From assembly GCA_002897955.1 (NCBI GenBank), contig BDTY01000122.1, positions 1 through 39,745 of the forward strand: 39,745 bases of DNA, read 5' to 3'. A program made the translations under genes and the position numbers. Origin of the DNA: an archaeon BMS3Bbin15. Its GTDB lineage: Archaea; Hydrothermarchaeota; Hydrothermarchaeia; Hydrothermarchaeales; BMS3B. The first letter of the stretch is position 1. Every line of letters begins with the position of its first letter. Positions 1 through 26,147 of this stretch are shown in pieces. Under the pieces are notes generated by a model. The model did no database searches. It was not told where the DNA came from and saw only the letters and a program-made list of their open reading frames with translations.

Positions 1-294
1 AGGAGATTGTCTTGTGCCATATATCTCTTCCAGTTCTACTGGGATTTCATCAACGAGTTCAAAAGAAAAACTTCTCCGGCAATGTTAGAAGAGGTAACAG
101 AACACCTGTGGACTTGGCACGATTTTTTAATGTACCATTATGCGGTATGAATTGGGACACTACCCGTTATTCATTAGAATCCTTAAAGCGCTGGTGAGGA
201 GGGCCATCTCTGTAATAGCCTACTCAACTTTCTCTTTTCGCCTGCCTTATAGCAATCAGTCTTCCAGCTTTTTACAAAACATGATGTTATGTTA
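1..294. other. left-edge stretch with no supported gene
   Basis: No coding region is convincing here. A 61-codon open frame starting at TTG 12 has no recognisable motif and its predicted protein resembles nothing I know; it could be the tail or remnant of an element gene. The stretch holds the upstream region of the nuclease/MNT gene, including a T/A-rich TATA-like stretch near 269-279. I looked for a copy of the tRNA-Ser 3' end, which would mark the far end of an integrated element, and found none. Confidence 0.5.
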
Positions 295-312
295 ATGAAT
301 AATGTTATTCAT
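295..312. promoter_or_regulatory. perfect palindrome at the start of the nuclease/MNT gene
   Basis: The 18 bases read ATGAATAA-TG-TTATTCAT, two perfect 8-base inverted arms around a 2-base centre. The site overlaps the first possible ATG (302) and ends directly before the second in-frame ATG (314). This is a natural position for an autoregulatory operator bound by the winged helix of the downstream protein. It also suggests ATG 314 may be the real start. The palindrome is seen; its role is inferred. Confidence 0.5.
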
Positions 313-1297
313 AATGAAAACGCAACAAAAAACTGGGGAAGATGCAGTGGAGAGGAGAGTTGTGGAGTTCCTCATTGACTCGGGATATGAGGTGAGGGAG
401 ACCTTAAGGGTTAAAGGCAGGTATCCTGATTTAGTGGCCGTAAAAGGTGACAGGATAGTGATGGTCGAGGTAAAGGGAAGCATGGGCGATTTGAGGTCGG
501 GAATTGCAAGGGCGATAGACTACACCTCCGGCTCCCATCTTTCATACCTGGCTATTCCGGCCTCCAGGTCCACTGATAAGCTTAGAGAGACAGCGAAGAG
601 TCTGGGCATAGGGCTGATGGAGGTGGACGATGAGGTTTCGGTGACCATCGAGCCCAGTGGGACAGCGCCCCTGGATTCCATTAGGAAGAGGGTGCTCGGG
701 AAGCCCAGGAGGGGGGAAAAAAGGAGAGCGTCCTCGGGCCGGCTCATTCTTACAAAAATTTCCAGGCACAGGAAGGTGGTCAAGCTTCTCCTTGAATACC
801 CTAAAAGGTCTTTTACTATAAGGGAGCTCTCCAGACAGGCCGCCGCCCCATACGCCACGGTCTGGCGCCTCATTAACGACCTGTACTCTGCGGGCGTGGT
901 TCACCTGAGCAGGATAGGCGGCTCTATTTCCTGCAGGCTGAATACTGAATCTCCTTACCTGGCTGAGGTGGAGAAAATACTGGAGATAGAAGCCTCCCCC
1001 CATAGGCTTGCCGCGAATGAATTTGCGGAAAAATCAAAAAACCTGCCCGGCATAGGGAGAATCATAATCTTTGGCAGCGTAGCCAGGGGGGAGGAAAAAC
1101 CTGAGAGCGATGTTGACATAGCGGTTATCGTGGAAGATAAAAGAGCTGAAGAAGAGATAAACAGGATAGCGGATGGAATCTTAAACCGCTCCAGAATAAA
1201 GATAATCCCCCTTGTCCTCACCCATGAGGAAGCAGCTGAAAACACGCAGTTCAAAGAGGAATTAAAAAGAGGAGAGGTCCTGTATGAGAGAGATTAA
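302..1297 (+). CDS. PD-(D/E)XK nuclease-like / winged-helix / MNT nucleotidyltransferase fusion protein
   Basis: The 331-residue protein has three parts. Residues about 10-115 look like a restriction-endonuclease-fold domain: P42-D43 is followed by E56-V57-K58, the PD...ExK core of Hjc/Mrr-type nucleases. Residues about 150-215 read as a winged helix-turn-helix. Residues about 245-331 are a minimal nucleotidyltransferase with G258-S259, ARG, then D270 and D272, the GS...SDxD signature of MntA-type antitoxins. The stop overlaps the HEPN gene by 14 bases, so the pair is probably translationally coupled. In known HEPN/MNT systems the MNT protein adenylylates and silences the HEPN RNase; here that is inferred. 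ATG 314 is an alternative start. The coding sequence is clearly GC-richer than the rest of the window (67% in line 841-900, counted by hand), suggesting transfer. The nuclease domain could instead be an inactive DNA-binding remnant. Confidence 0.8.
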   Translation: MLFIMKTQQKTGEDAVERRVVEFLIDSGYEVRETLRVKGRYPDLVAVKGDRIVMVEVKGSMGDLRSGIARAIDYTSGSHLSYLAIPASRSTDKLRETAKSLGIGLMEVDDEVSVTIEPSGTAPLDSIRKRVLGKPRRGEKRRASSGRLILTKISRHRKVVKLLLEYPKRSFTIRELSRQAAAPYATVWRLINDLYSAGVVHLSRIGGSISCRLNTESPYLAEVEKILEIEASPHRLAANEFAEKSKNLPGIGRIIIFGSVARGEEKPESDVDIAVIVEDKRAEEEINRIADGILNRSRIKIIPLVLTHEEAAENTQFKEELKRGEVLYERD

Positions 1298-1664
1298 TGA
1301 AGCTGAGGATTGGCTCAGAAGTGCTAAGACGCTGCTGGAAGGTTCTTCGGCCAGCAGAGAGAGGTACACGGTGGTCGTAGCCCAGTGCATCCACTCCGTA
1401 ATAAGAGCAAACGATGCCCTTTCCATGAATTTCCTGGGCAGGCGTGCAATAAGGCATGACACCGCGCCCAGGCTGTTCTTAGAGCTTATCGAGGAGAACA
1501 AGATTCCCCTGCGATATGCAAACCTCAGGAAGACCATTAATGATGCAGTGCAGCTTAAGAGCAAAGTGGATTACCAAGGGGCTGAGATGAGCAAGGCAGA
1601 CGCTAAGAGATGGGTCAACAAAGCTGAAAAATTTCTAAGTGCAGCAAAGGACTCCCTTGGCTAG
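1284..1664 (+). CDS. HEPN domain protein, putative toxin partner of the MNT fusion
   Basis: This 126-residue, mostly helical protein matches the size and pattern of HEPN proteins paired with minimal nucleotidyltransferases. The motif R53-x4-H58 (RRAIRH) fits the Rx4-6H RNase motif of HEPN toxins. The HepT-type motif continues H-x-Tyr, and the Tyr is the residue AMPylated by MntA; here that position is T60, so control may differ or use another residue. A central IHSVIRANDAL-like helix and the C-terminal lysine-rich helix are typical of archaeal family members. The start ATG lies inside the upstream gene. Function as an RNA-cleaving toxin is inferred from family and context. Confidence 0.75.
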   Translation: MREINEAEDWLRSAKTLLEGSSASRERYTVVVAQCIHSVIRANDALSMNFLGRRAIRHDTAPRLFLELIEENKIPLRYANLRKTINDAVQLKSKVDYQGAEMSKADAKRWVNKAEKFLSAAKDSLG

Positions 1665-1680
1665 TGTCATGTCAATTTAA

Positions 1681-1746
1681 TTATGTGACATAATACTTTG
1701 ATAGTTTGCTGTCAGCCCGGGGACATGGAGAGCAAGGCTCTGACAG
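1681..1746. repeat. inverted repeats downstream of the HEPN gene
   Basis: Bases 1681-1693 form the palindrome TTATGT-G-ACATAA. Bases 1709-1715 (CTGTCAG) and 1740-1746 (CTGACAG) are 7-base inverted arms with a 24-base loop. Neither is followed by a clear T-tract on the plus strand, so a terminator is not certain. They may be protein-binding sites or relics of the element. Confidence 0.35.
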
Positions 1747-1763
1747 AGATATCTCAGGGAAAA

Positions 1764-1783
1764 ATTCAGGTAGGTACCAGAAA
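1764..1783. promoter_or_regulatory. operator-like palindrome, copy 1, upstream of the MinD/ParA-like gene
   Basis: The 20 bases ATTCAGGTAGGTACCAGAAA are an imperfect copy (one mismatch in the inner 8-base arms) of the perfect palindrome at 2654-2673. It sits about 25 bases upstream of a TATA-like TTTTTATACT (1806-1815), which precedes the ATPase gene. The shared site implies the two genes answer to one regulator. Confidence 0.55.
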
Positions 1784-1848
1784 AAGTGCAAAAAAAGAGT
1801 TCACCTTTTTATACTGCCTGTTAATTCTAAAATAGTCTGAGCAGTAAA

Positions 1849-2640
1849 ATAGGAACGAGTCTCTGTATAACTTCAGGGAAAGGAGGAGTAGGAAAGACAT
1901 TCCTATCCTTGAATCTTGCTGCCTCTTTAGCCATGTTCAACATCAAAACTATGGTGGTGGATGCCAATTTAGACTGCCCAGATGTTGGTATTTGTCTGGG
2001 AAATGGATTAAATTATTCTTCACTTCATAATGTACTTGCAGGAAGAGATAAACTCTCCAACGCGGTCTTTGACAGCGGATATAATTTTGACATTATTCCC
2101 GGGGATATTTCCTTCAGTGCCCTGAAAGATATAGACCTCGAAAATTTAGAAGACATATTAACCAAACTCACAGAGAAATACAATGTTGTATTGGTGGATA
2201 CCCCGCCGGGTATCGGTGATGCTGTGATTCGTTCGTTGGATGCCTGTGAAAGTATGCTGGTGGTTATCTCGCCTGTTATGTCTTCTATCGTAGGCGGGTT
2301 GAAAATAAGGTCTATCGGGAAACGACTCAATACTCAGTGTATTGGTGTTGTTTTGAACATGACAGGAGACGGGGGGATTATCAGCAAGGAGAATATAGAA
2401 AAAACATTTGGATTACCTGTTATTGGTGAAGTGGAATACAATACGGAGGTAAACAGTTATTTAACCGAAGGAGATTTGTTTGTGGTAACTAATTCTGCTT
2501 CCAATACATCAAGAGCAATTAAAAAAATAGCTGTTGACCTGGTAGGGTATGAACCGGAAGAGACTGAAGAGGTTGAAAGCAGCGAAATTAAAGATAACTC
2601 ACAAATCAAAAAAATCATCAAAGCTCTGAAAAATTTGTGA
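1849..2640 (+). CDS. MinD/ParA-family P-loop ATPase with a non-canonical start
   Basis: The protein (about 263 residues) is a deviant-Walker ATPase of the MinD/ParA group: SGKGGVGKT near the N-terminus, a VVDANLDCPDVG segment (Walker A') and VLVDTPPGIGD (Walker B). The C-terminus ends in a lysine-rich helix that could contact membrane or DNA. The P-loop is encoded in frame from about 1876, but after the in-frame TAA at 1828 there is no ATG, GTG or TTG before it; the first is TTG 1909, which would delete the P-loop. The natural MinD-like start (GT.. then ITSGKGG) corresponds to an ATA codon at 1849, with CTG 1837 as another option. It may use a rare start, or the start codon may have mutated. 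Likely role: partitioning or positioning within a mobile element. Confidence 0.75.
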   Translation: MGTSLCITSGKGGVGKTFLSLNLAASLAMFNIKTMVVDANLDCPDVGICLGNGLNYSSLHNVLAGRDKLSNAVFDSGYNFDIIPGDISFSALKDIDLENLEDILTKLTEKYNVVLVDTPPGIGDAVIRSLDACESMLVVISPVMSSIVGGLKIRSIGKRLNTQCIGVVLNMTGDGGIISKENIEKTFGLPVIGEVEYNTEVNSYLTEGDLFVVTNSASNTSRAIKKIAVDLVGYEPEETEEVESSEIKDNSQIKKIIKALKNL

Positions 2641-2653
2641 TAAAACATCTTTT

Positions 2654-2673
2654 TTTCTGGTAGGTACCAGAAA
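2654..2673. promoter_or_regulatory. operator-like perfect palindrome, copy 2, upstream of the membrane-protein gene
   Basis: TTTCTGGTA-GG-TACCAGAAA is a perfect inverted repeat with 9-base arms. It lies 16 bases before a strong TATA-like TTTATATACT (2689-2698) of the downstream gene. With the near-identical site at 1764-1783 it forms a two-site regulon inside the element; the binding protein is not identified. Confidence 0.6.
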
Positions 2674-2742
2674 GAAAACACTATACCCTTTATATACTTC
2701 CTTCATTTCTGTATCCTGTGATGTTTGAATGGAGGAATAGAG

Positions 2743-3129
2743 ATGACTTCAATTAGAGGTATAATGGTTGTTTCAATACTGATAGACATTATCTTCAATA
2801 GTGTTGCAGCGGTACAGGAGACTGGATTTGGCGGGCTCATGCAGCAAATCCCACTGTTACAGAACAAATTCTACATACAGAGTATAGTTACACTGTTATT
2901 GTATCTGGATGTTGCAGTATTACTCATAAGTCTGGGAATGATAATCGTTGGGCGTGCAGTGGGTGGTGACAGGTCAGAAGGGGCAGAGATGTTTGTAAAA
3001 GGAAAGAAAATATTCACCGTTGCACTTATATCACTGCTGATACTTGCAGCATTACCTGTACTGATAAAATTCTTTCTGCGTGCAGGGAGCGGTTCAACAG
3101 CGCTGGCAAATCAAGTCCCGACCTGGTGA
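2743..3129 (+). CDS. small secreted/membrane protein with VirB2-pilin-like layout
   Basis: The start is ATG 2743, preceded by the Shine-Dalgarno GGAGG at 2731; an upstream in-frame TTG (2725) is less likely. The 128-residue product begins with a hydrophobic segment ending SVAA, which could be a cleaved signal peptide (about residues 1-23). Two more hydrophobic segments follow, about residues 50-72 and 91-112, separated by a short polar loop (GRAVGGDRSEGAE) and with a short polar tail. Signal peptide plus two membrane helices with a small polar loop is the architecture of VirB2/TrbC-type pilins, but I see no decisive sequence motif. It could simply be an element-specific membrane protein. It sits between two ParA/CooC-type ATPase genes. 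Confidence 0.6.
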   Translation: MTSIRGIMVVSILIDIIFNSVAAVQETGFGGLMQQIPLLQNKFYIQSIVTLLLYLDVAVLLISLGMIIVGRAVGGDRSEGAEMFVKGKKIFTVALISLLILAALPVLIKFFLRAGSGSTALANQVPTW

Positions 3130-3134
3130 AATAA

Positions 3135-3595
3135 ATGAAACTAATTCTGAGTGGAAAAGGACCCGGCAAAACCGTTATAGCTTCGTTATTGGCAGTCACA
3201 CACGCAATAGGCGTGTATGACGCTGACCCTTACAGGGCATTGACGGATATATCTTCCCTGGAGCAGAGCCTTATGATGATAAAGACAGTACCATCACCCC
3301 CTGCATAATCGATACCACACTTGTGGATGAGAAAGGAAGACCCTATTATCATATCTTAAATGAAAACCCGGACGGATGGGTTATAGTCGTAACCTCTCCG
3401 CACACACATGAGGTTACATCCACAAAAAGAATGATAGAAGACATGAAAGAGCTTGTAAATGCCCATATCCAGGGTGTTATTATTTCCGTGGCATCCGGTG
3501 AAGAAGAGGCAAAGAAAGTTGCTTACAAATTGGGAGTGTCTCTTATAGGCTTGACTCCTCTTGTATTACGCCGAGGAAGGGATTTGAACCCCTGA
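3135..3595 (+). pseudogene. frameshifted CooC-type P-loop ATPase fragment
   Basis: An ATG at 3135, 5 bases after the previous stop, opens a frame with SGKGPGKT (P-loop) and a DADPYRALTD segment, typical of CooC-like ATPases. That frame ends early, near 3308. The continuing sequence (IFPGAEPYDDKDSTITPC and the rest to VSLIGLTPL) is in the frame that is open to 3595, so about one base has been lost or gained near 3250. The final residues and stop are encoded by the 3' end of the antisense tRNA-Ser gene, as expected for an element gene abutting an attachment site. The protein also looks short for CooC, lacking much of the middle. I call it a decayed gene, with programmed frameshifting a remote alternative. 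Confidence 0.7.
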
Positions 3596-3668
3596 GTTCC
3601 TTGCGGAACACGAGCTTTCTGTGTCAAACTCTCCAGGCTCGCGCCTTACCGGGCTTGGCTACCTCGGC
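3569..3668 (-). tRNA. tRNA-Ser(GGA) with a 14-nt anticodon-loop intron
   Basis: Read on the minus strand, the acceptor GCCGAGG pairs with CCTCGGC and the discriminator is G, the serine identity. A long variable arm GTTCC-GCAA-GGAAC marks a class II tRNA, and TTCAAAT is the T loop. The anticodon stem CGAGC/GCTCG encloses 21 bases, 14 more than a normal loop. Removing AGTTTGACACAGAA (3617-3630), between positions 37 and 38, gives the loop CTGGAGA with anticodon GGA. CTG/CAG pairing next to an AAA bulge makes a reduced bulge-helix-bulge. CCA is not encoded. The element's last gene runs into the 3' end. Confidence 0.9.
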
Positions 3669-3768
3669 TCATGCTCCTTGATAAGTAATTAACATCTTAA
3701 ATCTAACATAGGAATAAAGAAAAGCTCTACTTCTTTCTTTAATTAAGTTAACTTTCTCATGCCTGAAT

Positions 3769-4212
3769 ATGTATCATTTCAAAAGTGCAGTGGCAGGAAC
3801 CTTTGACGTACTTCATAAAGGACACAGGGTTTTAATAGAGGAAGCCTTTAAACGAGGCGAGTTCGTTCTTGTAGGTATTACAAAAGACGGTTTTAAAGAG
3901 GCAAAACCCATGAAGGTCAGAAAGAGAAATCTGGACAAGCTACTCAGAGCGAGATATCCTGAAAGGTATGAAATTGTTGAAATTGAGGATGAACTCGGCC
4001 CCGCGGTTGTAAACCCTGACCTTGATGCTCTTATTGTAAGTGAGGAAACCTATTCAAAAGCTGCTGTAATAAATAAGCTCAGAAAGGAAAAAGGGCTGAA
4101 AAAACTTGTAATATATAAAATTTCCATGGTTCTGGCAGCTGACGGAAAACCCATATCATCCCTGAGAATTAATAAAGGGGAAATAGATAAAGAGGGAAAT
4201 CTGTTAAAATAA
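3769..4212 (+). CDS. coaD: phosphopantetheine adenylyltransferase, archaeal type
   Basis: This 147-residue nucleotidyltransferase transfers AMP from ATP to 4'-phosphopantetheine, giving dephospho-CoA in cytoplasmic CoA synthesis. GTFDVLHKGH at residues 10-19 is the HxGH adenylyltransferase signature, and ISSLRI at 129-134 corresponds to the ISSTxI motif of cytidylyltransferase-like enzymes. Length and motifs match the archaeal/eukaryotic-type PPAT rather than bacterial CoaD. No Shine-Dalgarno is seen; a T/A-rich region about 30-50 bases upstream suggests a leaderless or short-leader transcript. The 3' end overlaps the convergent radical SAM gene by 9 bases. It is the first clearly chromosomal gene after the tRNA-Ser. 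Confidence 0.92.
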   Translation: MYHFKSAVAGTFDVLHKGHRVLIEEAFKRGEFVLVGITKDGFKEAKPMKVRKRNLDKLLRARYPERYEIVEIEDELGPAVVNPDLDALIVSEETYSKAAVINKLRKEKGLKKLVIYKISMVLAADGKPISSLRINKGEIDKEGNLLK

Positions 4213-5922
4213 ACTTTTAATTAATTTGAATGCCAGAGAGAACATCCTCCTTACCTTCAGACTTCTGCTCCAGTCAAGCTCCTCCCTGTTTATAGTAACT
4301 CTTTCACTGAGCTCTTCAAGAGAAACCATAAGAGCTTCCTCATCTATCCTCTCACCCTTTCTCTTTGCTTCTTCGATTCTGCCCATAACTCTCCTGGAGA
4401 CCTCAATTCTGTGATTAATTGTGTTATAGGTCTCAATATCAATCAGTCCGGCATCCTTCTTTATATCCGCAAAATCAAGAGCAGAAGTATAGGACAGCTT
4501 CACTATTTCATCCCTGCTAAGATAATTTGTGGAGTAGCTGAGGAACTCCTTCCATGTGTTTCCTCTCTCAAGAAGATTATAATGGTCAAAAAGTGTAAAA
4601 GCACGTTTTTTGTAACCATATTTTTCAGGTGACTCAAAGGCAAGACTTCCGGGGTCAAGAAAGGGGGCATAGGGAGAAACAAAAGGTAGAAGTTTATTGC
4701 CAGAGTTCCCCTTCACAAGCGATTCGGCAAGTGTTGCATTTACTTCAACACTTTTTCTATCCTGGAATCCAAGACCAACCATGAAATAAAGGTCAAACTG
4801 TCTGCAGTTGTTTGAAAAAGCCTGTGAGACCATCTTTTTTAAAGAATTATTATTGTAAACCCTGCCTATCTTCATCCTCACTTCTTCATCTCCCGCTTCG
4901 GGAGACATTTCTATTGTAAAGTTATCCACGCTTCTTCCCATTTCCTCGAGAAAACGTCTTGAAGGCGGGTAGAAAAACTCAAAAATCAGAGGTATATCAA
5001 CTCCCTCTTTTCTTATCCCTTTGAGAATTTCCAGGCCATATTCTTCACTATGCAGGGCAAGGTCACCCAGGATAAAGGCAGGAGTCTTGAATTCTTCTAT
5101 TTTTTTTATGTCTTTCACAACCTTCTCCACACTTCTGAAGGCAACACTAGGCCTGTTGCATGTGTTTTTATAGGTATAGCTTGAACCCCCACAGGCTATA
5201 CAGTTACTCTCACATCCCTTCCTAGTTAAAACTGCCATTATAGGTCTTTCAATAAACTCCTTGAAGGGCACTGTATCCAGCCTGTGTTTTGAATGCGTAA
5301 AAGCCCTTAATGAATATTCATAATCAAGAGAATAATCATCCAGTGTAGACGGAACATAGCTCATTGGATTCTCTTTAATTCTTCCCTCTTTTCGATAACT
5401 TAAATTGGCTACTTTCTCAAAGTTACCTTTATCAAGAGCCTCCATAAGCTGGATAAAGGGCTCCTCCGTAGAGTCACCTCGAAGCACAAAGTCTACCTCT
5501 GGAACATCACGAAGAATCTCTCTGTAAAAGTAGCTCGAGGAAAGTCCGCCAAAAACTATAGGTGTGTTTGGGTGAACCTTCTTAACAATCCTTGCAAGAT
5601 TTATTGCTCCATGAACATGAGGCATCCAGTGAAGGTCAATACCAAAAAGTCTGGCATCTATTTTGGAAATGTATTTTTCAGGGTCAAACTTCTTATCTGA
5701 AAGCATTCTCAGTGCAATGTTCACTATAGCTATTTTGTAGCCTTTTTTTTCCAGAATTGAAGCTATACTTACAAAGCCCATTGGGTACATTTCAAATACA
5801 GGCGTGCTGGGCACAAGGTCGTTAATCGGACCCCAGAGAATAGGTTTCTCCCTGAAGTTGAATATACTCGGCGCATGAAGAAGAGCTAAATCTATCCTCA
5901 TAGCCCTTTTGTAAAGAATCAC
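4204..5922 (-). CDS. B12-binding-domain radical SAM protein, possibly Ta0216 family
   Basis: The 572-residue protein has an N-terminal cobalamin-binding-like Rossmann region (residues about 10-190, including GGLSSSYFYREIL and a GIDLHWMPH segment) and a radical SAM core with CESNCIAC (CxxxCxxC) near residues 235-242. The C-terminal third is helical and lysine/arginine-rich. Such enzymes use SAM and often methylcobalamin to modify unactivated carbons; the substrate is unknown. The architecture resembles the archaeal family known as Ta0216, from memory and not verified. GTG 5922 is the longest start; ATG 5901, preceded by AAAAGGG, is a good alternative. It lies 3 bases after the NAD(P)HX repair gene, so the two are probably co-transcribed. 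Confidence 0.8.
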   Translation of the reverse strand: MILYKRAMRIDLALLHAPSIFNFREKPILWGPINDLVPSTPVFEMYPMGFVSIASILEKKGYKIAIVNIALRMLSDKKFDPEKYISKIDARLFGIDLHWMPHVHGAINLARIVKKVHPNTPIVFGGLSSSYFYREILRDVPEVDFVLRGDSTEEPFIQLMEALDKGNFEKVANLSYRKEGRIKENPMSYVPSTLDDYSLDYEYSLRAFTHSKHRLDTVPFKEFIERPIMAVLTRKGCESNCIACGGSSYTYKNTCNRPSVAFRSVEKVVKDIKKIEEFKTPAFILGDLALHSEEYGLEILKGIRKEGVDIPLIFEFFYPPSRRFLEEMGRSVDNFTIEMSPEAGDEEVRMKIGRVYNNNSLKKMVSQAFSNNCRQFDLYFMVGLGFQDRKSVEVNATLAESLVKGNSGNKLLPFVSPYAPFLDPGSLAFESPEKYGYKKRAFTLFDHYNLLERGNTWKEFLSYSTNYLSRDEIVKLSYTSALDFADIKKDAGLIDIETYNTINHRIEVSRRVMGRIEEAKRKGERIDEEALMVSLEELSERVTINREELDWSRSLKVRRMFSLAFKLIKSLF

Positions 5923-5925
5923 ATC

Positions 5926-7386
5926 TTAAAAACTTATGTCCACTCTGGAAAACACATCTTTGATTGCAATAGGTATCTCCACCGAAAGTTCACTGGCAAG
6001 AAAGAAATAACCTTTCCTTTCAAAAAGCCTGTCTCCGCTGTAGCCATTGATAAAGGCGGAAGCACAGGCAGCATAAAAAGGCTCTGCTCCCTGGGCAAGC
6101 AAACCTGCAGCTATACCCGCAAGCACATCACCTGTACCGCCTCTTGTCATCCCAGCATTACCGGTGTTATTAAACTTTATCCTTCCTACGGGCGAGGCAA
6201 CTATGTCTGTGCTTCCCTTCAGAAGAATAGTTGCATTGAATTCTTCAGCAACTTTTTTTACTGTAGCTTCTCTATTTTCAGATTCAACTCCTGAAAGCCT
6301 TCTCAACTCTCCAGCATGAGGAGTTAGTATAGCATGCTTACCTCTCAGAACTTCTTTATCTAAAGCCAAAGCCTTTAATGCATCGGCATCCACAACAACT
6401 GGTTTATTCCAGTGCTTCAGGAAGCTTAACACTGCCTCTATGGTTTTACTGTCATCACCAAGCCCGGGACCTATTACTGCAGCATCGGCTTTATCGAAAA
6501 TTTTCTTCCCTTCACCAAGAGATTTCTTAGTCAGCCTATCACCGGAGTATCCTGTCACTATAAAATCAGGTGAAACAGACCTTACAGGGTTGAGAAGAAC
6601 CCCGGGCACAAAAAGATATACCAGGTCAATGCCGGTGCCGAGAGCGCCCCTGGCTGAGAGTACAGGAGCACCGTGGTACTCTTTACTCCCCCCGATTACA
6701 ACAACCCTGCCAAAGTCACCTTTATGTGCCTCCTTAAATCTCTTTCTCAGGCAGATTACCAGGTCCCCGGGTCCTGCAAAGGTGAGTGCATTTTCAGGCA
6801 TGCCTATGTCCTTTACAACAGTATTATGTCTCTCCAGACCCTGCTTCATGGCAATAAAGGTTACCACAAGGTCTGGCTCGGCAAAATAGCCTTCTCCCTT
6901 TGAATCCATCCCGCTGGGAAGGTCAACTGCCACCTTGAAGGCTTTTGAAACAGCAATTTTGTTCACAGCACTTTTATATGGCTCCTTAATTTCACCTCTG
7001 ATTCCGGTGCCAAGAAGTGCGTCTATTACAACATCCTCGTCAATTTCTAGTTTTTCCGAATCTTGCGAAAATTGGGTCTTGATAGAACTTAGAAATCTCA
7101 GTTTTTCAAGATTTTTCTCAGCAGCTCTGCTTTTCATCTTTTTTCCAAAAACAAATACTCTAACACCAAAACCTGCTTTTGCAAGGTATCTGGCAGCCAC
7201 AAGACCGTCACCACCGTTATTCCCGGTGCCGCACACAACAAGAATATTTTTTCCTTTCTTAATCCTCCTCAACGTCTCCTCCGCAACAGCCCTGCCCGCA
7301 TTCTCCATCAATTCCTTAACACTCGTGCCCAGCCACATTGAATTTATATCAAAAACTCTCACATCATTATAACTGATATATTCCAT
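5926..7386 (-). CDS. nnr: bifunctional NAD(P)HX epimerase / ADP-dependent NAD(P)HX dehydratase
   Basis: It repairs hydrated NADH and NADPH. The N-terminal half is the YjeF epimerase (NAGRAVAEE, GTGNNGGDGLVAARYL, DALLGTGIRGE, VDLPSGMDS). The C-terminal half is the ribokinase-fold dehydratase (KGDFGRVVVIGGSKEYHGAP, PGLGDDS, VVDADAL, LTPHAGELRRL, LLKGSTDIV, NAGMTRGGTGDVLAG). All the expected motifs are present and the length (486 residues) fits fused archaeal Nnr. I prefer ATG 7386 over the upstream TTG 7407 because the family begins at MEYISYNDV and a TATA-like AATTTATCC lies about 30 bases before it. It is divergent from the small zinc-finger gene. Confidence 0.93.
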   Translation of the reverse strand: MEYISYNDVRVFDINSMWLGTSVKELMENAGRAVAEETLRRIKKGKNILVVCGTGNNGGDGLVAARYLAKAGFGVRVFVFGKKMKSRAAEKNLEKLRFLSSIKTQFSQDSEKLEIDEDVVIDALLGTGIRGEIKEPYKSAVNKIAVSKAFKVAVDLPSGMDSKGEGYFAEPDLVVTFIAMKQGLERHNTVVKDIGMPENALTFAGPGDLVICLRKRFKEAHKGDFGRVVVIGGSKEYHGAPVLSARGALGTGIDLVYLFVPGVLLNPVRSVSPDFIVTGYSGDRLTKKSLGEGKKIFDKADAAVIGPGLGDDSKTIEAVLSFLKHWNKPVVVDADALKALALDKEVLRGKHAILTPHAGELRRLSGVESENREATVKKVAEEFNATILLKGSTDIVASPVGRIKFNNTGNAGMTRGGTGDVLAGIAAGLLAQGAEPFYAACASAFINGYSGDRLFERKGYFFLASELSVEIPIAIKDVFSRVDISF

Positions 7387-7535
7387 ATTTAATAAAAGAT
7401 ACTCCAAAGGATAAATTCTTTACTGTATTCCATCGGAAGTAACCTTCGTATGTTATGCAACATAATACACAATTCCAAAACCATCTTAAAGTAGTAGTAT
7501 TATATAAGAAGGATTATACAAGAAGGGGATTAAGA

Positions 7536-7670
7536 ATGACATCAAAATTTACAATGAACAATTTCCTTATACTGAAAAATAAATGCCTTCAGTGCGGTAA
7601 GGATATTCTCAAGTCAAGAGATTTCTGCTCAAAAGACTGTGAAAAGGCCTTTTTTAAAGAAAACGTTTAA
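7536..7670 (+). CDS. 44-residue zinc-ribbon protein
   Basis: This small protein carries CLQC (CxxC) and CSKDC (CxxxC), a four-cysteine zinc-binding pattern with the DFCSKDCEKAF signature of small archaeal DUF2116-type zinc ribbons. A TATA box (TTATATAA, 7499-7506) lies inside the longer open frame that begins at 7455, so translation must start downstream. ATG 7536 is about 30 bases after the TATA box, consistent with a leaderless transcript. Such proteins are thought to bind nucleic acid or protein; no specific role is known. Confidence 0.75.
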   Translation: MTSKFTMNNFLILKNKCLQCGKDILKSRDFCSKDCEKAFFKENV

Positions 7671-7688
7671 AAATAATTAGTAAATTTA

Positions 7689-7773
7689 TGCGGGGGAAGG
7701 GACTTGAACCCTCGCAGGCACTTAGCCAGCAGGTCCTAAGCCTGCCTCCTTTGACCAGCTCGGACACCCCCGC
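7689..7773 (-). tRNA. tRNA-Leu(TAG)
   Basis: On the minus strand GCGGGGG pairs with CCCCCGC and the discriminator is A, as expected for leucine. The anticodon stem GCAGG/CCTGC holds the loop CTTAGGA, giving anticodon TAG, which reads CTA. A long variable arm (TGGC...GCCT) marks class II. No intron and no encoded CCA are present. Its 5' end is 12 bases after the stop of the small basic-protein gene on the same strand, so both are probably on one transcript. Confidence 0.95.
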
Positions 7774-7785
7774 ATAATAAATAGA

Positions 7786-7899
7786 TTATCTTGTCCTGAG
7801 CTTTCTCTGACGCCTTCTCTCTTTTAACTTTTTCTTTCTTGTTTTCCAGCGGCATTTTCCACGCTTTTTCCACTTTCTCGAGCTATGTTTACCTGCCAT
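7786..7899 (-). CDS. 37-residue Arg/Lys-rich basic protein, ribosomal-protein-like
   Basis: It is too short for standard gene calling but well supported: a strong Shine-Dalgarno GGAGGA sits 6 bases before ATG 7899, and a TATA-like CTATAAAAATTT lies about 50-65 bases upstream. The product starts MAGKHSSRKWKKRGK and has 11 Lys and 10 Arg in 37 residues, with two Trp and one Cys. This composition is like the tiny ribosomal proteins (L41e, THX, mS38 type) that thread through rRNA, but I cannot assign a named family. The gene is followed 12 bases later by tRNA-Leu, which fits a translation-related role. Confidence 0.7.
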   Translation of the reverse strand: MAGKHSSRKWKKRGKCRWKTRKKKLKERRRQRKLRTR

Positions 7900-8078
7900 T
7901 AAATTCCTCCTAAAAAATTATTCTTCAGATATCACAATTATCTCACATGATAAATTTTTATAGAAGAAGGAGAGTTAATCAGGCTCTTCTGAAAGTAATT
8001 TTAGTCAGTATAAGTTAATATAACCTCTGATAGCTTGCAATAAGAAGACTTTTAAGTTTTAAATGTAATATATAATAT

Positions 8079-8996
8079 GTGGTGGATATGAAGACATTGA
8101 AAGTTATCACAATTGGTTTTATCATTCTGATTGCTGCAGCAGCCGGACTGGGATTTTATTTTTATAAATCAGGAAGTCTGGCTAAACCAGAGATTAAATC
8201 CCTGTCAAACAGCTGGGGTACAGTTAACCTTCAAGAAACAGAGATTATAACCAGAGCTGAGATTTACAATCCAAATCCTGTGAGTATTCCGATAAATAGA
8301 ATAAATGTTGGAATTTATATGAATGGCATAAAGCTTGCTTCAGGCGAAGCCAGGAATATAAACCTAATAGCAAATAAAAACTCTCAGGTAGAATTCACAA
8401 CAATTCTTAATAACACAAAACTACCCGAATGGTGGTACACCCATATAAAAAATGGCGAACACACCACAGTTTTAATGAAGACAACAGTTTACTTCAGTCT
8501 TCTCGGCAGGGAACTCAGCTTCCCTATTGAGATTAAAAAGAATATAACCACAAATATTCTGGGCTCGGCTACCATGAAATCCTCAGGTAATTCAGGTTTA
8601 CCTCTGGGAGCACCTGAGATAAGAAGTATGACAAACAGATGGGGCAATGTTACACCCTTGAAAACCCAGGTGATTACACAACTGGAGGTATATAATCCCA
8701 ACCCCTTCCCGGTACCTGTAAAAAGTATAGATTACTCAATAACCATGAACAATATACTCATGGCTTCTGGTAAGAGCAATAGTGTTGAGCTTCCTCCACA
8801 TAGTGAGAAGGATATAACTGCTTCCACATATATTGACAATAAAGATATACCCGTGTGGTGGGTATCTCATATAGAAAATCATGAGACAACACTCATGGTG
8901 ATAAAGGGTAAGATGGTATTTGATATAGCCGGAAAAACTCTGGAAATCCCACTGCCAGAGTACAAAAAAGAGTTTACAACAAATATTTTAAGGTAG
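8079..8996 (+). CDS. membrane-anchored protein with two LEA14/WHy domains
   Basis: A single N-terminal membrane helix (about residues 10-28) is followed by two homologous domains of about 130 residues. Each has a W-G-x-V start, an E-(I/V)-Y-N-P-N-P motif, a SGxxxxxxL segment and a pair of tryptophans (PEWWYTHI, PVWWVSHI). These are hallmarks of LEA14-type WHy (LEA_2) domains. The layout places the domains outside the cell. Archaeal members are linked to stress or to cell-surface structure, without a defined activity. GTG 8079 and ATG 8088 are both possible starts; a TATA-like region at 8050-8064 favours a leaderless start near 8079. It heads a likely operon with the AMMECR1 gene (22-base gap). 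Confidence 0.82.
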   Translation: MVDMKTLKVITIGFIILIAAAAGLGFYFYKSGSLAKPEIKSLSNSWGTVNLQETEIITRAEIYNPNPVSIPINRINVGIYMNGIKLASGEARNINLIANKNSQVEFTTILNNTKLPEWWYTHIKNGEHTTVLMKTTVYFSLLGRELSFPIEIKKNITTNILGSATMKSSGNSGLPLGAPEIRSMTNRWGNVTPLKTQVITQLEVYNPNPFPVPVKSIDYSITMNNILMASGKSNSVELPPHSEKDITASTYIDNKDIPVWWVSHIENHETTLMVIKGKMVFDIAGKTLEIPLPEYKKEFTTNILR

Positions 8997-9018
8997 GTCT
9001 GAAGAAAAAGGTGATATT

Positions 9019-9645
9019 ATGTACACTCTTGAAGACGGGGAATATCTCATAAAACTTGCCAGAAGGGCATTAGATATCTATCTTACCAGCGGTAAAATTA
9101 TAACCCCGCCTGAAGACGCCCCTGAAAAGTTAAAGAAAAAGGCAGGCGTCTTTGTAACCCTTGAAACTTATCCTGAAGAAAATCTCAGGGGCTGCATAGG
9201 TTTTCCTGAGCCAATCTATTCTCTTGTCGAAGGTACAATAAAGGCTGCCATAGCTGCCGGAGTGGAAGACCCCAGGTTTCCGCCTATGTTAAAACATGAA
9301 ATAATTCATATTACCATGGAGGTGAGTGTTCTTACTCCACCTGAACCCATAGTTGTTTCTTCAACAATGGAATATCCTGAAAGGATTAAGGTTGGAAGGC
9401 ATGGGCTGATAATCGAGAAAGGTTTTGCCAGAGGGCTTCTCTTACCTCAGGTCCCTGTTGAACAGGGATGGAATGAGGAAGAATTTTTAATTTACACCTG
9501 CATAAAAGCCGGGCTTTCTGGAGACTGCTGGCTTGACAGAAATACAAAAGTCTATTCTTTTGAAGGGAAGATATTTAAGGAAGAAGAACCAGGGGAAAAG
9601 GTGGTTGAAAAAGTGCTTGGAGATAAGAGCTGCTCTGTTTCTTAA
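9019..9645 (+). CDS. AMMECR1 domain protein (AmmeMemoRadiSam system protein A)
   Basis: The 208-residue protein matches AMMECR1 in length and motifs: LRGCIGFPEP (the LRGCIG hallmark), ALxAA-like IKAAIAAGVEDPRFPP, ITMEVSVLTPPEPI, GRHGLIIEKG and LLLPQVPVEQGW. The conserved core is a two-subdomain fold of unknown enzymatic function. It is often encoded with MEMO and a radical SAM protein; a MEMO gene is present at 18370-19203. The start ATG has a GGTGAT Shine-Dalgarno just upstream. Confidence 0.92.
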   Translation: MYTLEDGEYLIKLARRALDIYLTSGKIITPPEDAPEKLKKKAGVFVTLETYPEENLRGCIGFPEPIYSLVEGTIKAAIAAGVEDPRFPPMLKHEIIHITMEVSVLTPPEPIVVSSTMEYPERIKVGRHGLIIEKGFARGLLLPQVPVEQGWNEEEFLIYTCIKAGLSGDCWLDRNTKVYSFEGKIFKEEEPGEKVVEKVLGDKSCSVS

Positions 9646-9670
9646 TTCTTCGAGTCGTTAAAGGAATCGG

Positions 9671-10306
9671 ATGGAAAATATGGCTGAAGAGCAAGGAAAG
9701 TGCATGTACCACAGCATCGATAATAGAGCTTACTGCAGATTTACAGAAAGGCCATGTTTTGGCGCATATATTGATGAATTTAAGGAAGGGTACGTTATAG
9801 ATATATGGAAGGAGCAGGAGTGCCCAAACTACAAATATGACGAGAATATCCTTTTTAAAGAGGAAGCACCTGTTAAATCTGATCCGAATGGTGTCTTCGA
9901 GAAGCAGAAGGAAGGGTCTGCTGCAGGCGCCCAGATTGAAGTTATTGATGGTGAGATAGTAAATAACAGAAATGGAAGAGTTGAGATAACCCTCTTCGGG
10001 TCTAAGATAGCTGTTGAGTGTACAGACGAAGGATGTGACGTGCCTGAAAGTATCGATATTGATGCTGAAGTACTTCAGCACTATTTCAACAGAAAGTATG
10101 GCCTGGGAGTTATAGAAGTAAAATGGGTGGATGTTTTAAGTCCAGAACTTGAAAGCTATCCCGAGGTTAATGAATATATTGGCCTACATAATACATATCC
10201 AATAGTGACAATCAATGAAATTCTCAAGTTTGTGGGCAGTATATCCGTGGATTTAATTAATAATGAGCTTGAGAAGTTGGGAATAATACAGAAAAAGCTT
10301 GACTAA
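9671..10306 (+). CDS. uncharacterised protein: Cys-rich N-terminus and thioredoxin-like C-terminus
   Basis: The 211-residue protein has an N-terminal segment with four cysteines (GKCMYH, AYCRF, RPCFG, QECPN) that could bind a metal or an iron-sulfur cluster. An acidic linker follows. In the C-terminal part, VIEVKWVDVLSPELESYPEV and the TYPIVTINEILKFVGSISVD-like segment resemble small thioredoxin-fold proteins of the DUF1462/YuzD type. No CxxC redox pair is present there; the only cysteines in that half are VECTDEGCDV. ATG 9671 has AAGGA 5 bases upstream. It is 25 bases after the AMMECR1 gene and probably in its operon. No function can be assigned. Confidence 0.65.
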   Translation: MENMAEEQGKCMYHSIDNRAYCRFTERPCFGAYIDEFKEGYVIDIWKEQECPNYKYDENILFKEEAPVKSDPNGVFEKQKEGSAAGAQIEVIDGEIVNNRNGRVEITLFGSKIAVECTDEGCDVPESIDIDAEVLQHYFNRKYGLGVIEVKWVDVLSPELESYPEVNEYIGLHNTYPIVTINEILKFVGSISVDLINNELEKLGIIQKKLD

Positions 10307-10331
10307 TTCCGTTATTGGGTGGTAGGCTTTC

Positions 10332-10532
10332 CTATCCACCTGAAATTATCCTTACAGCCTCAATAATATCTCCTGTTTTAAGTTCTTCCTCCTCGGTAAC
10401 TATATTTCCATCCTTTTTCACAATTACAGTTTCAGTATTGATTCCTGCTCTCTCAAGTATGTCTCTTACTTTTACATCTTTATCAACTTCAATAATCTTT
10501 TCTCCTCTATCATAGAGCAATTTTATTTTCAT
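10332..10532 (-). CDS. ubiquitin-like ThiS/MoaD-family small sulfur carrier (SAMP-like)
   Basis: This 66-residue beta-grasp protein ends in RIISGG, the diglycine C-terminus that is adenylated and thiocarboxylated or conjugated in ThiS, MoaD and archaeal SAMPs. The pattern KIKLLYDR, VRDILERAG, KDGNIVTEEEELKTGDIIEAVRI is typical. The start is taken at MKIKLLYD; ATG 10541 would add three residues. It could serve thiamine or tungsto/molybdopterin synthesis, tRNA thiolation or protein modification; no E1-like gene is nearby to decide. Confidence 0.85.
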   Translation of the reverse strand: MKIKLLYDRGEKIIEVDKDVKVRDILERAGINTETVIVKKDGNIVTEEEELKTGDIIEAVRIISGG

Positions 10533-10595
10533 AATCAACATAGAAATAATAACTTCAGGAGAGATTAATTACGTTAATGGTGGAATTTTAATTAA

Positions 10596-10668
10596 GGGCT
10601 TGTAGCTCAGCTGGTAGAGTGCCGCCTTCGCAAGGCGGAAGCCCCGGGTTCGAATCCCGGCAAGTCCA
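10596..10668 (+). tRNA. tRNA-Ala(CGC)
   Basis: GGGCTTG pairs with CAAGTCC (one G-T pair; the 3:70 pair is G-T, the alanine identity element). D stem GCTC, anticodon stem CCGCC/GGCGG and loop TTCGCAA give anticodon CGC. T arm CCGGG-TTCGAAT-CCCGG. Discriminator A; no intron and no encoded CCA. The 3' end is 8 bases from the convergent archaemetzincin gene. Confidence 0.96.
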
Positions 10669-25808: not shown

Positions 25809-26147
25809 TGGAGCCGTGCCGGGAGTAACCCACCTTCTGTTGTAGGAATAGCCGGAAGAAGAATATCATCTTCCGGTTTCCCATGCAGCATTCGTCTTAG
25901 CGCCATAGCGAAGGGACTCCTGCAGCCGAGCGCTCCCTTCTGCTTGCATCCCCAGAGATGGCCGTTTCACCCCCTGTATAGAAACTCTGTCTTTCGACTT
26001 CACAGCTTACTTCTATGCAAGGGTACCGTTTCTGCTCCAGAGCTGTGCCTCTCGGCACGGGTTTATTAACCCTCCGGGTCCTGCAGTGATGGGCGGAGTT
26101 TCCTCACTTCTCAATCAAGAGAAGCGTTAGCTGCCCTCCGGCTCGAC
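25809..26147 (-). ncRNA. rnpB: RNase P RNA, archaeal type
   Basis: On the minus strand the conserved blocks appear in order: GAGGAAACTCCGCC (CR-I), GGAGCAGAAACGG (CR-II), GGGGGTGAAACGGCC (CR-III), AAGACGAATGCTGC (CR-IV) and CAACAGAAGGTGGGTTA (CR-V). The ends can pair as helix P1 (GAGCCG at 26139-26144 with CGGCTC at 25811-25816). About 340 nt fits archaeal type A RNase P RNA, which cleaves 5' leaders from pre-tRNA. End positions are estimates. A 93-residue open frame on the plus strand inside it is not a gene. Confidence 0.93.

Follow-up and report, generated by a model that had tools for sequence, protein, structure and literature searches.

The usual antitoxin in a HEPN-MNT pair is a small enzyme that silences its toxin chemically, and Class II pairs of this kind are common in archaea. 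In the Class I, type VII system MntA/HepT (PMC7641770), also described from Legionella (PMC11586414), MntA adenylylates HepT at Tyr104 (PMC7641770). The same 2020 HepT/MntA study treated pairs with a PF05168 HEPN protein as Class II, in which the tyrosine and the MNT motif are kept and RX4HXY is not; their status as toxin-antitoxin (TA) systems was left open, and as of 2020 there was no biochemistry on such pairs (PMC7641770). For the AF0298 family, Anantharaman et al. (PMC3710099) describe a missing motif histidine, a basic residue that is kept, and a second histidine that could form an alternative active site. Table 1 of that paper also includes an REase (DUF1626) with MNT in an operon with a PaREP1/8 HEPN, as well as a HEPN-M fused to an Hjc-like REase. 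Finally, PADLOC contains a candidate defense pair, PDC-M05, made up of a nucleotidyltransferase and a HEPN protein (PMC12988326).

We analyzed computationally a gene pair on a 39,745-nucleotide stretch (positions 1 to 39,745 of contig BDTY01000122.1, assembly GCA_002897955.1; here, the window) of DNA from the archaeon BMS3Bbin15, a member of the Hydrothermarchaeota. Like the Class II modules (PF05168 + PF01909; PMC7641770), it combines a PF05168 HEPN that lacks RX4HXY and retains the conserved tyrosine (Tyr97) with a GSX10DXD MNT gene that comes first and overlaps the HEPN gene; unlike them, its antitoxin adds a winged helix (wHTH) and an N-terminal PD-(D/E)XK domain. The wHTH-MNT part matches PDC-M05A, and one fused homologue also has a PDC-M05B HEPN (PMC12988326), whereas the window HEPN has no PDC-M05B match and the PDC-M05A models lack the nuclease domain. 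Similarities to MntA/HepT are the MNT motif and fold and the position of the HEPN acceptor tyrosine, but the window HEPN belongs to another family, without RX4HXY, and its antitoxin has three domains. The AF0298-like HEPN-T (2hsb; PMC3710099) shares the alternative histidine, the basic residue at the arginine position, and the tyrosine; it corresponds to the partner only, whereas the window HEPN is encoded beside a nuclease-bearing MNT. The REase cases in Table 1 of that paper likewise place REase-fold domains near MNT and HEPN, but they involve other HEPN families, and the nuclease-wHTH-MNT order is not described in that table. Earlier work thus already covers HEPN-MNT pairs, the joining of wHTH to MNT (PDC-M05), and REase domains in the vicinity of MNT or HEPN genes (PMC3710099, PMC12988326); what is new here is a nuclease-wHTH-MNT antitoxin on a Class II HEPN-MNT pair close to PDC-M05. 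We found no description of such a three-domain antitoxin among the open-licence PMC papers searched.

Organization of the fusion protein

The original prediction proposed two overlapping open reading frames, the first encoding a nuclease, a winged helix, and an MNT domain in that order. Both frames were confirmed from the sequence, with a 14-base overlap that includes the stop codon (Table 1), and the three-domain order is supported by Pfam, PADLOC, homologues, and structural matches of the wHTH-MNT part. The proposed reading frame of the fusion gene also stands, but its start at base 302 probably does not: because relatives align at M5 (base 314) and a conserved palindrome occupies positions -19 to -2 relative to that codon, the protein probably begins there. 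A search for the same domain order recovered 14 complete fusions in archaea, so this arrangement is not a one-off.

Table 1. Coordinates of the gene pair and its features in the window
Feature	Position	Strand	Description
Nuclease-wHTH-MNT fusion protein	302..1297	+	331 aa when counted from ATG 302; true start probably ATG 314
PD-(D/E)XK-like nuclease domain (probable)	332..655	+	Residues ~11-118; Pfam Hjc, REase-fold families in homologues, PDB profile matches, triad conservation
Nuclease triad codons	D43 428-430, E56 467-469, K58 473-475		Motif form PD...EVK
Winged-helix DNA-binding domain	758..946	+	Residues ~153-215; PDC-M05A wHTH+MNT models, Foldseek matches to wHTH regulators
MNT	1034..1294	+	Residues 245-331, GS258-259...D270xD272; Pfam, Foldseek, motif in 14/14 fusions
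HEPN protein, AF0298-like Class II type	1284..1664	+	126 aa; Pfam HEPN, family profile against 2hsb
HEPN residue codons	His58 1455-1457, Lys92 1557-1559, Tyr97 1572-1574
Operator-like palindrome ATGAATAATGTTATTCAT	295..312	.	-19 to -2 relative to the probable start codon at 314
Mobile unit (block common to SZUA-158)	219..1666	+	97.1% identity, different chromosomal place

The MNT domain was recognized by Pfam Polbeta (E = 1.2e-12) and NTP_transf_2 (E = 3.6e-10), and its GSX10DXD motif is kept in all of the complete fusions. Residues 155 to 316, comprising wHTH and MNT, match PADLOC PDC-M05A (E = 2.9e-19), whose models span 167 to 211 positions, with the nuclease domain falling outside them. 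Foldseek comparisons of the predicted structure placed the C-terminal part with MNT antitoxins from solved HEPN-MNT complexes (8xeh, 7ae9, and 7bxo) and the central part with ArsR/MarR-type regulators. From its motifs, this MNT domain is a likely AMP transferase.

The N-terminal domain is probably PD-(D/E)XK-like and DNA cutting. Searched in isolation (first 121 residues), it narrowly exceeds the Pfam Hjc cut-off of 21.1 bits, scoring 21.4 (E = 2.4e-4); within the full-length fusion protein, the score drops to 19.3 bits, below the gathering score, and the alignment covers residues 16 to 62 only. We did not assign the domain to the Hjc Holliday junction resolvases, based on this whole-protein score and partial alignment. 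Homologous nuclease domains scanned singly recurrently, though with weak E-values, matched Hjc (12/16), NERD (10/16), MmcB-like (9/16), UPF0102 (9/16), and other REase-fold families, and a profile of all 16 sequences matched the PDB entries 3fov (best, E = 3e-4), Hjc (1hh1/2eo0, E = 0.03), and AF1548 (1y88, E = 0.05).

Conservation of the catalytic residues, on which the original prediction had made its nuclease claim depend in advance, holds among the nuclease-bearing loci: D43 and E56 are present in 16/16 and K58 is present in 15/16, with one fused homologue (L056) carrying arginine instead. Nonsynonymous changes in the nuclease domain are few: the ratio dN/dS is ∼0.06 in the comparison with the SZUA-158 genome, calculated from 11 changes only, and ranges from 0.07 to 0.16 in other pairs. 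AlphaFold models built from three-sequence alignments, either of the whole fusion or of the nuclease domain alone, gave pLDDT values of ∼30 to 60 in the nuclease region and no significant structural match there; confidence was limited to much of the wHTH-MNT part. By sequence, the PD-(D/E)XK assignment is good. The K58R substitution and these poor three-sequence models weigh against the overall reading of the pair given below, in which the added domain is probably catalytically competent. At three further loci (L032, L033, and L034), relatives of the nuclease domain are linked to an ArsR-like winged helix, MNT is absent, and D43 has been lost.

The HEPN partner and a likely operator

The window HEPN scores 27.0 bits against Pfam PF05168 (cut-off, 22). 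At the place of Rx4-6H it reads QLKSKVDY (Q90-L-K92-S93-K-V-D-Y97), in which the canonical histidine is absent; membership in Class I MntA/HepT, which have RX4HXY, was rejected for this reason. All 26 relatives of the window type retain D44, H58, and Y97, and 25 of them retain K92. The profile of this family matches 2hsb (AF0298; E = 3.6e-5). A single-protein PDB search with the window HEPN yielded chance matches only, and no PADLOC family, and thus no PDC-M05B model, matched it up to an E-value of 10. Based on residue conservation and the profile match, we assign the window HEPN to the AF0298-like Class II HEPNs, with His58, Lys92, and Tyr97 as its predicted alternative set.

The palindrome upstream of the pair has perfect 8-bp arms and a 2-bp spacer. 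It recurs at the same position in SZUA-158, J060 (TTGAATAATGTCATTCAA), and G191 (TGGATAATATTATCCA); the J060 and G191 versions differ in sequence, with changes paired across the arms. In L005 and L008, two relatives without the fusion, TGAATAA...TTATTCA is found close to the start. Since 3% of simple shuffles equal it, the palindrome alone is not rare, and its weight rests on this conservation together with its uniqueness in the genome, where TGAATAANNTTATTCA without mismatch occurs a single time in 1.74 Mb, at this site. The palindrome is likely the operator of the pair, and its conservation lends support to the earlier suggestion of autoregulation, which the winged helix would mediate.

Two origins of the nuclease fusion

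The closest relatives were gathered by searches of several hundred archaeal genomes. The nuclease domain accompanies this antitoxin at 16 archaeal loci, comprising the 14 complete fusions and 2 loci where a frame of its own encodes the nuclease, all of which align unambiguously at the nuclease core. In the wHTH-MNT tree, fused proteins occupy two separate places, each among unfused relatives, and a single origin of the fusion was rejected (AU test, P = 0.00018) and was absent from all bootstrap trees built with 59 rows (0/200). Taken separately, the nuclease domains are consistent with a single family (P = 0.38). HEPN type also differs between the two fused groups, being AF0298-like in the window group and PDC-M05B-like in the other (E = 2e-10 for the match of L030 to PDC-M05B). 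The phylogeny thus indicates at least two independent additions of the nuclease domain, to different wHTH-MNT/HEPN lineages, suggesting that it is useful in the module. Most pairs with the window type of HEPN do without it, and it is therefore dispensable to the core function.

At the two separate-frame loci (L052, positions 882 to 1884, and L055, positions 1477 to 2462), two overlapping frames encode the nuclease and wHTH-MNT separately, and HEPN is broken. Since both loci diverge close to the base of the fused group to which they belong, they may be decayed fusions or represent a separate-gene stage.

One-sided decay of HEPN

HEPN-led searches and a domain script were used to score 54 loci, draft genomes included. 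Of these, 38 have both genes intact, 11 have a broken HEPN and an intact MNT, 2 have a broken HEPN with no MNT found, and 2 are unclear at contig ends. The one remaining locus (L109) was scored as an intact HEPN with a broken MNT, a call that we rejected, as its 182-amino-acid frame is open and looks divergent rather than broken. Draft genomes add uncertainty to the asymmetry of 11 losses against one doubtful reverse case, but it is not simply assembly noise, because the longer MNT frames would gather more chance errors. The pattern fits a toxic HEPN and a protective MNT and so strengthens the assignment of toxin and antitoxin in the original prediction. At 4 of the 11 loci (J060, G538, G680 C33, and G585), the gene beside the broken HEPN is a complete, open nuclease fusion. 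In J060, whose fusion protein is a 55%-identical homologue, HEPN is broken by an internal deletion and a frame change (L028, positions 6322 to 6650), and the fusion gene is open.

Mobility and genomic context

The module is mobile between loci. SZUA-158, a sister species in the same genus, carries the block 219 to 1666 at 97.1% identity in other surroundings, whereas in the first 9 kb of the window, the longer segments with a match elsewhere in SZUA-158 are 89 to 93% identical and lie on other contigs. Synonymous divergence (dS) between the two genomes is 0.06 to 0.08 for the module versus 0.16 to 0.25 for three other genes. To the left of the module lies the terminal part of a multicopy gene; to its right, the sequence matches one end of an insertion sequence (IS) with a DDE_3 transposase (IS630-like).

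On the left, positions 1 to 150 of the window hold the end of an open frame (49 amino acids, ...FLMYHYAV) that occurs in several copies both here and in the SZUA-158 genome; it had no match in a Pfam search and is probably a transposase C terminus. On the right, a 56-bp repeat at the IS end (1661 to 1717) has approximately six further genome copies, and its edge coincides with the HEPN stop codon TAG (1662 to 1664), as if the IS had inserted at its TA. Two fused copies lie in other contexts: one (G680 C33; L149, positions 8276 to 10597) adjoins a solo Cas1 and an HNH nuclease gene in a casposon-like arrangement, and another (G480 C31; L157, positions 2 to 9198) is flanked by an MCM-domain protein on one side and an integrase-like gene on the other, which suggests that it is cargo of an integrated element.

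A conserved larger operon was considered and rejected, as neighbors vary by locus and none was found to be common across loci. No defense neighborhood was conserved across ten extended loci, and some copies lie near mobile-element genes. Searches of phage records and viral contigs detected no relative of the module, and among the matches listed for plasmid records were only partial wHTH-MNT matches.

The window also contains a short interspersed repeat (2650 to 2730) with many partial copies in SZUA-158, an archaeal RNase P RNA (25814 to 26146; 165.5 bits), and an Rfam tRNA match (3569 to 3668; 50.8 bits) that overlaps the end of a 90-amino-acid ORF. This match is absent from the ARAGORN output and may be an intron-containing tRNA.

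Proposed function and significance

We consider the pair to be a mobile, self-repressing Class II HEPN-MNT TA system with an add-on nuclease on its antitoxin, and give this reading a probability of approximately 0.6. HEPN would be the toxin, probably acting as an RNase through His58 and Lys92 instead of the canonical Rx4-6H; MNT would be the antitoxin, most likely moving AMP to HEPN Tyr97; and the winged helix would bind the palindrome at the operon start and repress the operon. These roles are drawn from motifs, homologues, and comparative genomics. Against this reading, the motif to which RNase activity is linked in Class I toxins is missing from the window HEPN. The PD-(D/E)XK domain, gained by fusion, would be an accessory nuclease whose most likely role, proposed solely from its conserved catalytic residues, would be to recognize or cut foreign or abnormal DNA. 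Engaging such DNA would damage it and withdraw the antitoxin from HEPN; such a link between recognizing DNA and releasing the toxin is conjecture, as are nuclease activity, DNA sensing, and abortive infection by the module.

The absence of Rx4-6H while the nuclease triad is intact could instead mean that the PD-(D/E)XK domain acts as a DNase and is the actual toxin, with HEPN as its inhibitor or as the substrate-binding subunit of MNT, a role formerly proposed for HEPN (PMC3710099). We regard this as very unlikely, given that open, complete fusions beside a broken HEPN at four loci are unexpected if HEPN restrains the nuclease and that many related pairs without the nuclease domain show the same decay pattern. 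It is also unlikely that there is no TA system, with MNT modifying another target and HEPN acting as a domesticated partner in a housekeeping or metabolic role. Domesticated MNT-HEPN enzymes do exist (PMC3710099), and Class II pairs were without a biochemical test as of PMC7641770, but the patchy occurrence of the module, its movement between loci, and the one-sided HEPN loss argue otherwise, as do the overlapping two-gene order with MNT first and the conserved alternative active-site residues.

A further possibility, which we consider real if doubtful, is that the nuclease domain, with fold and metal site retained, only binds or senses DNA without meaningful cleavage, in an otherwise ordinary Class II TA system. 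Its fusion to a DNA-binding wHTH, the relatives beside an ArsR-like wHTH that lack both MNT and D43, and the K58R substitution in one fused homologue are consistent with this idea. Retention of D, E, and K in 15/16 fused loci across deep divergence, however, goes beyond the needs of DNA binding. Returning to the TA system with an add-on nuclease, a tentative extension is a composite defense switch, in which a single protein would sense and cleave DNA, act as repressor, and serve as antitoxin by AMP transfer, so that foreign DNA would be cut and the HEPN RNase released.

The one-sided loss of HEPN and the H58/K92/Y97 set bear on the question of whether Class II pairs are TA systems, left open in PMC7641770, and the set names residues to mutate. 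That two lineages independently gained the same kind of nuclease domain suggests its importance to the module, and the window pair provides a concrete, testable case of an antitoxin that may sense or cut DNA. If the composite switch is true, nuclease-antitoxin fusion would be a recurrent archaeal way to couple restriction to cell shutdown.
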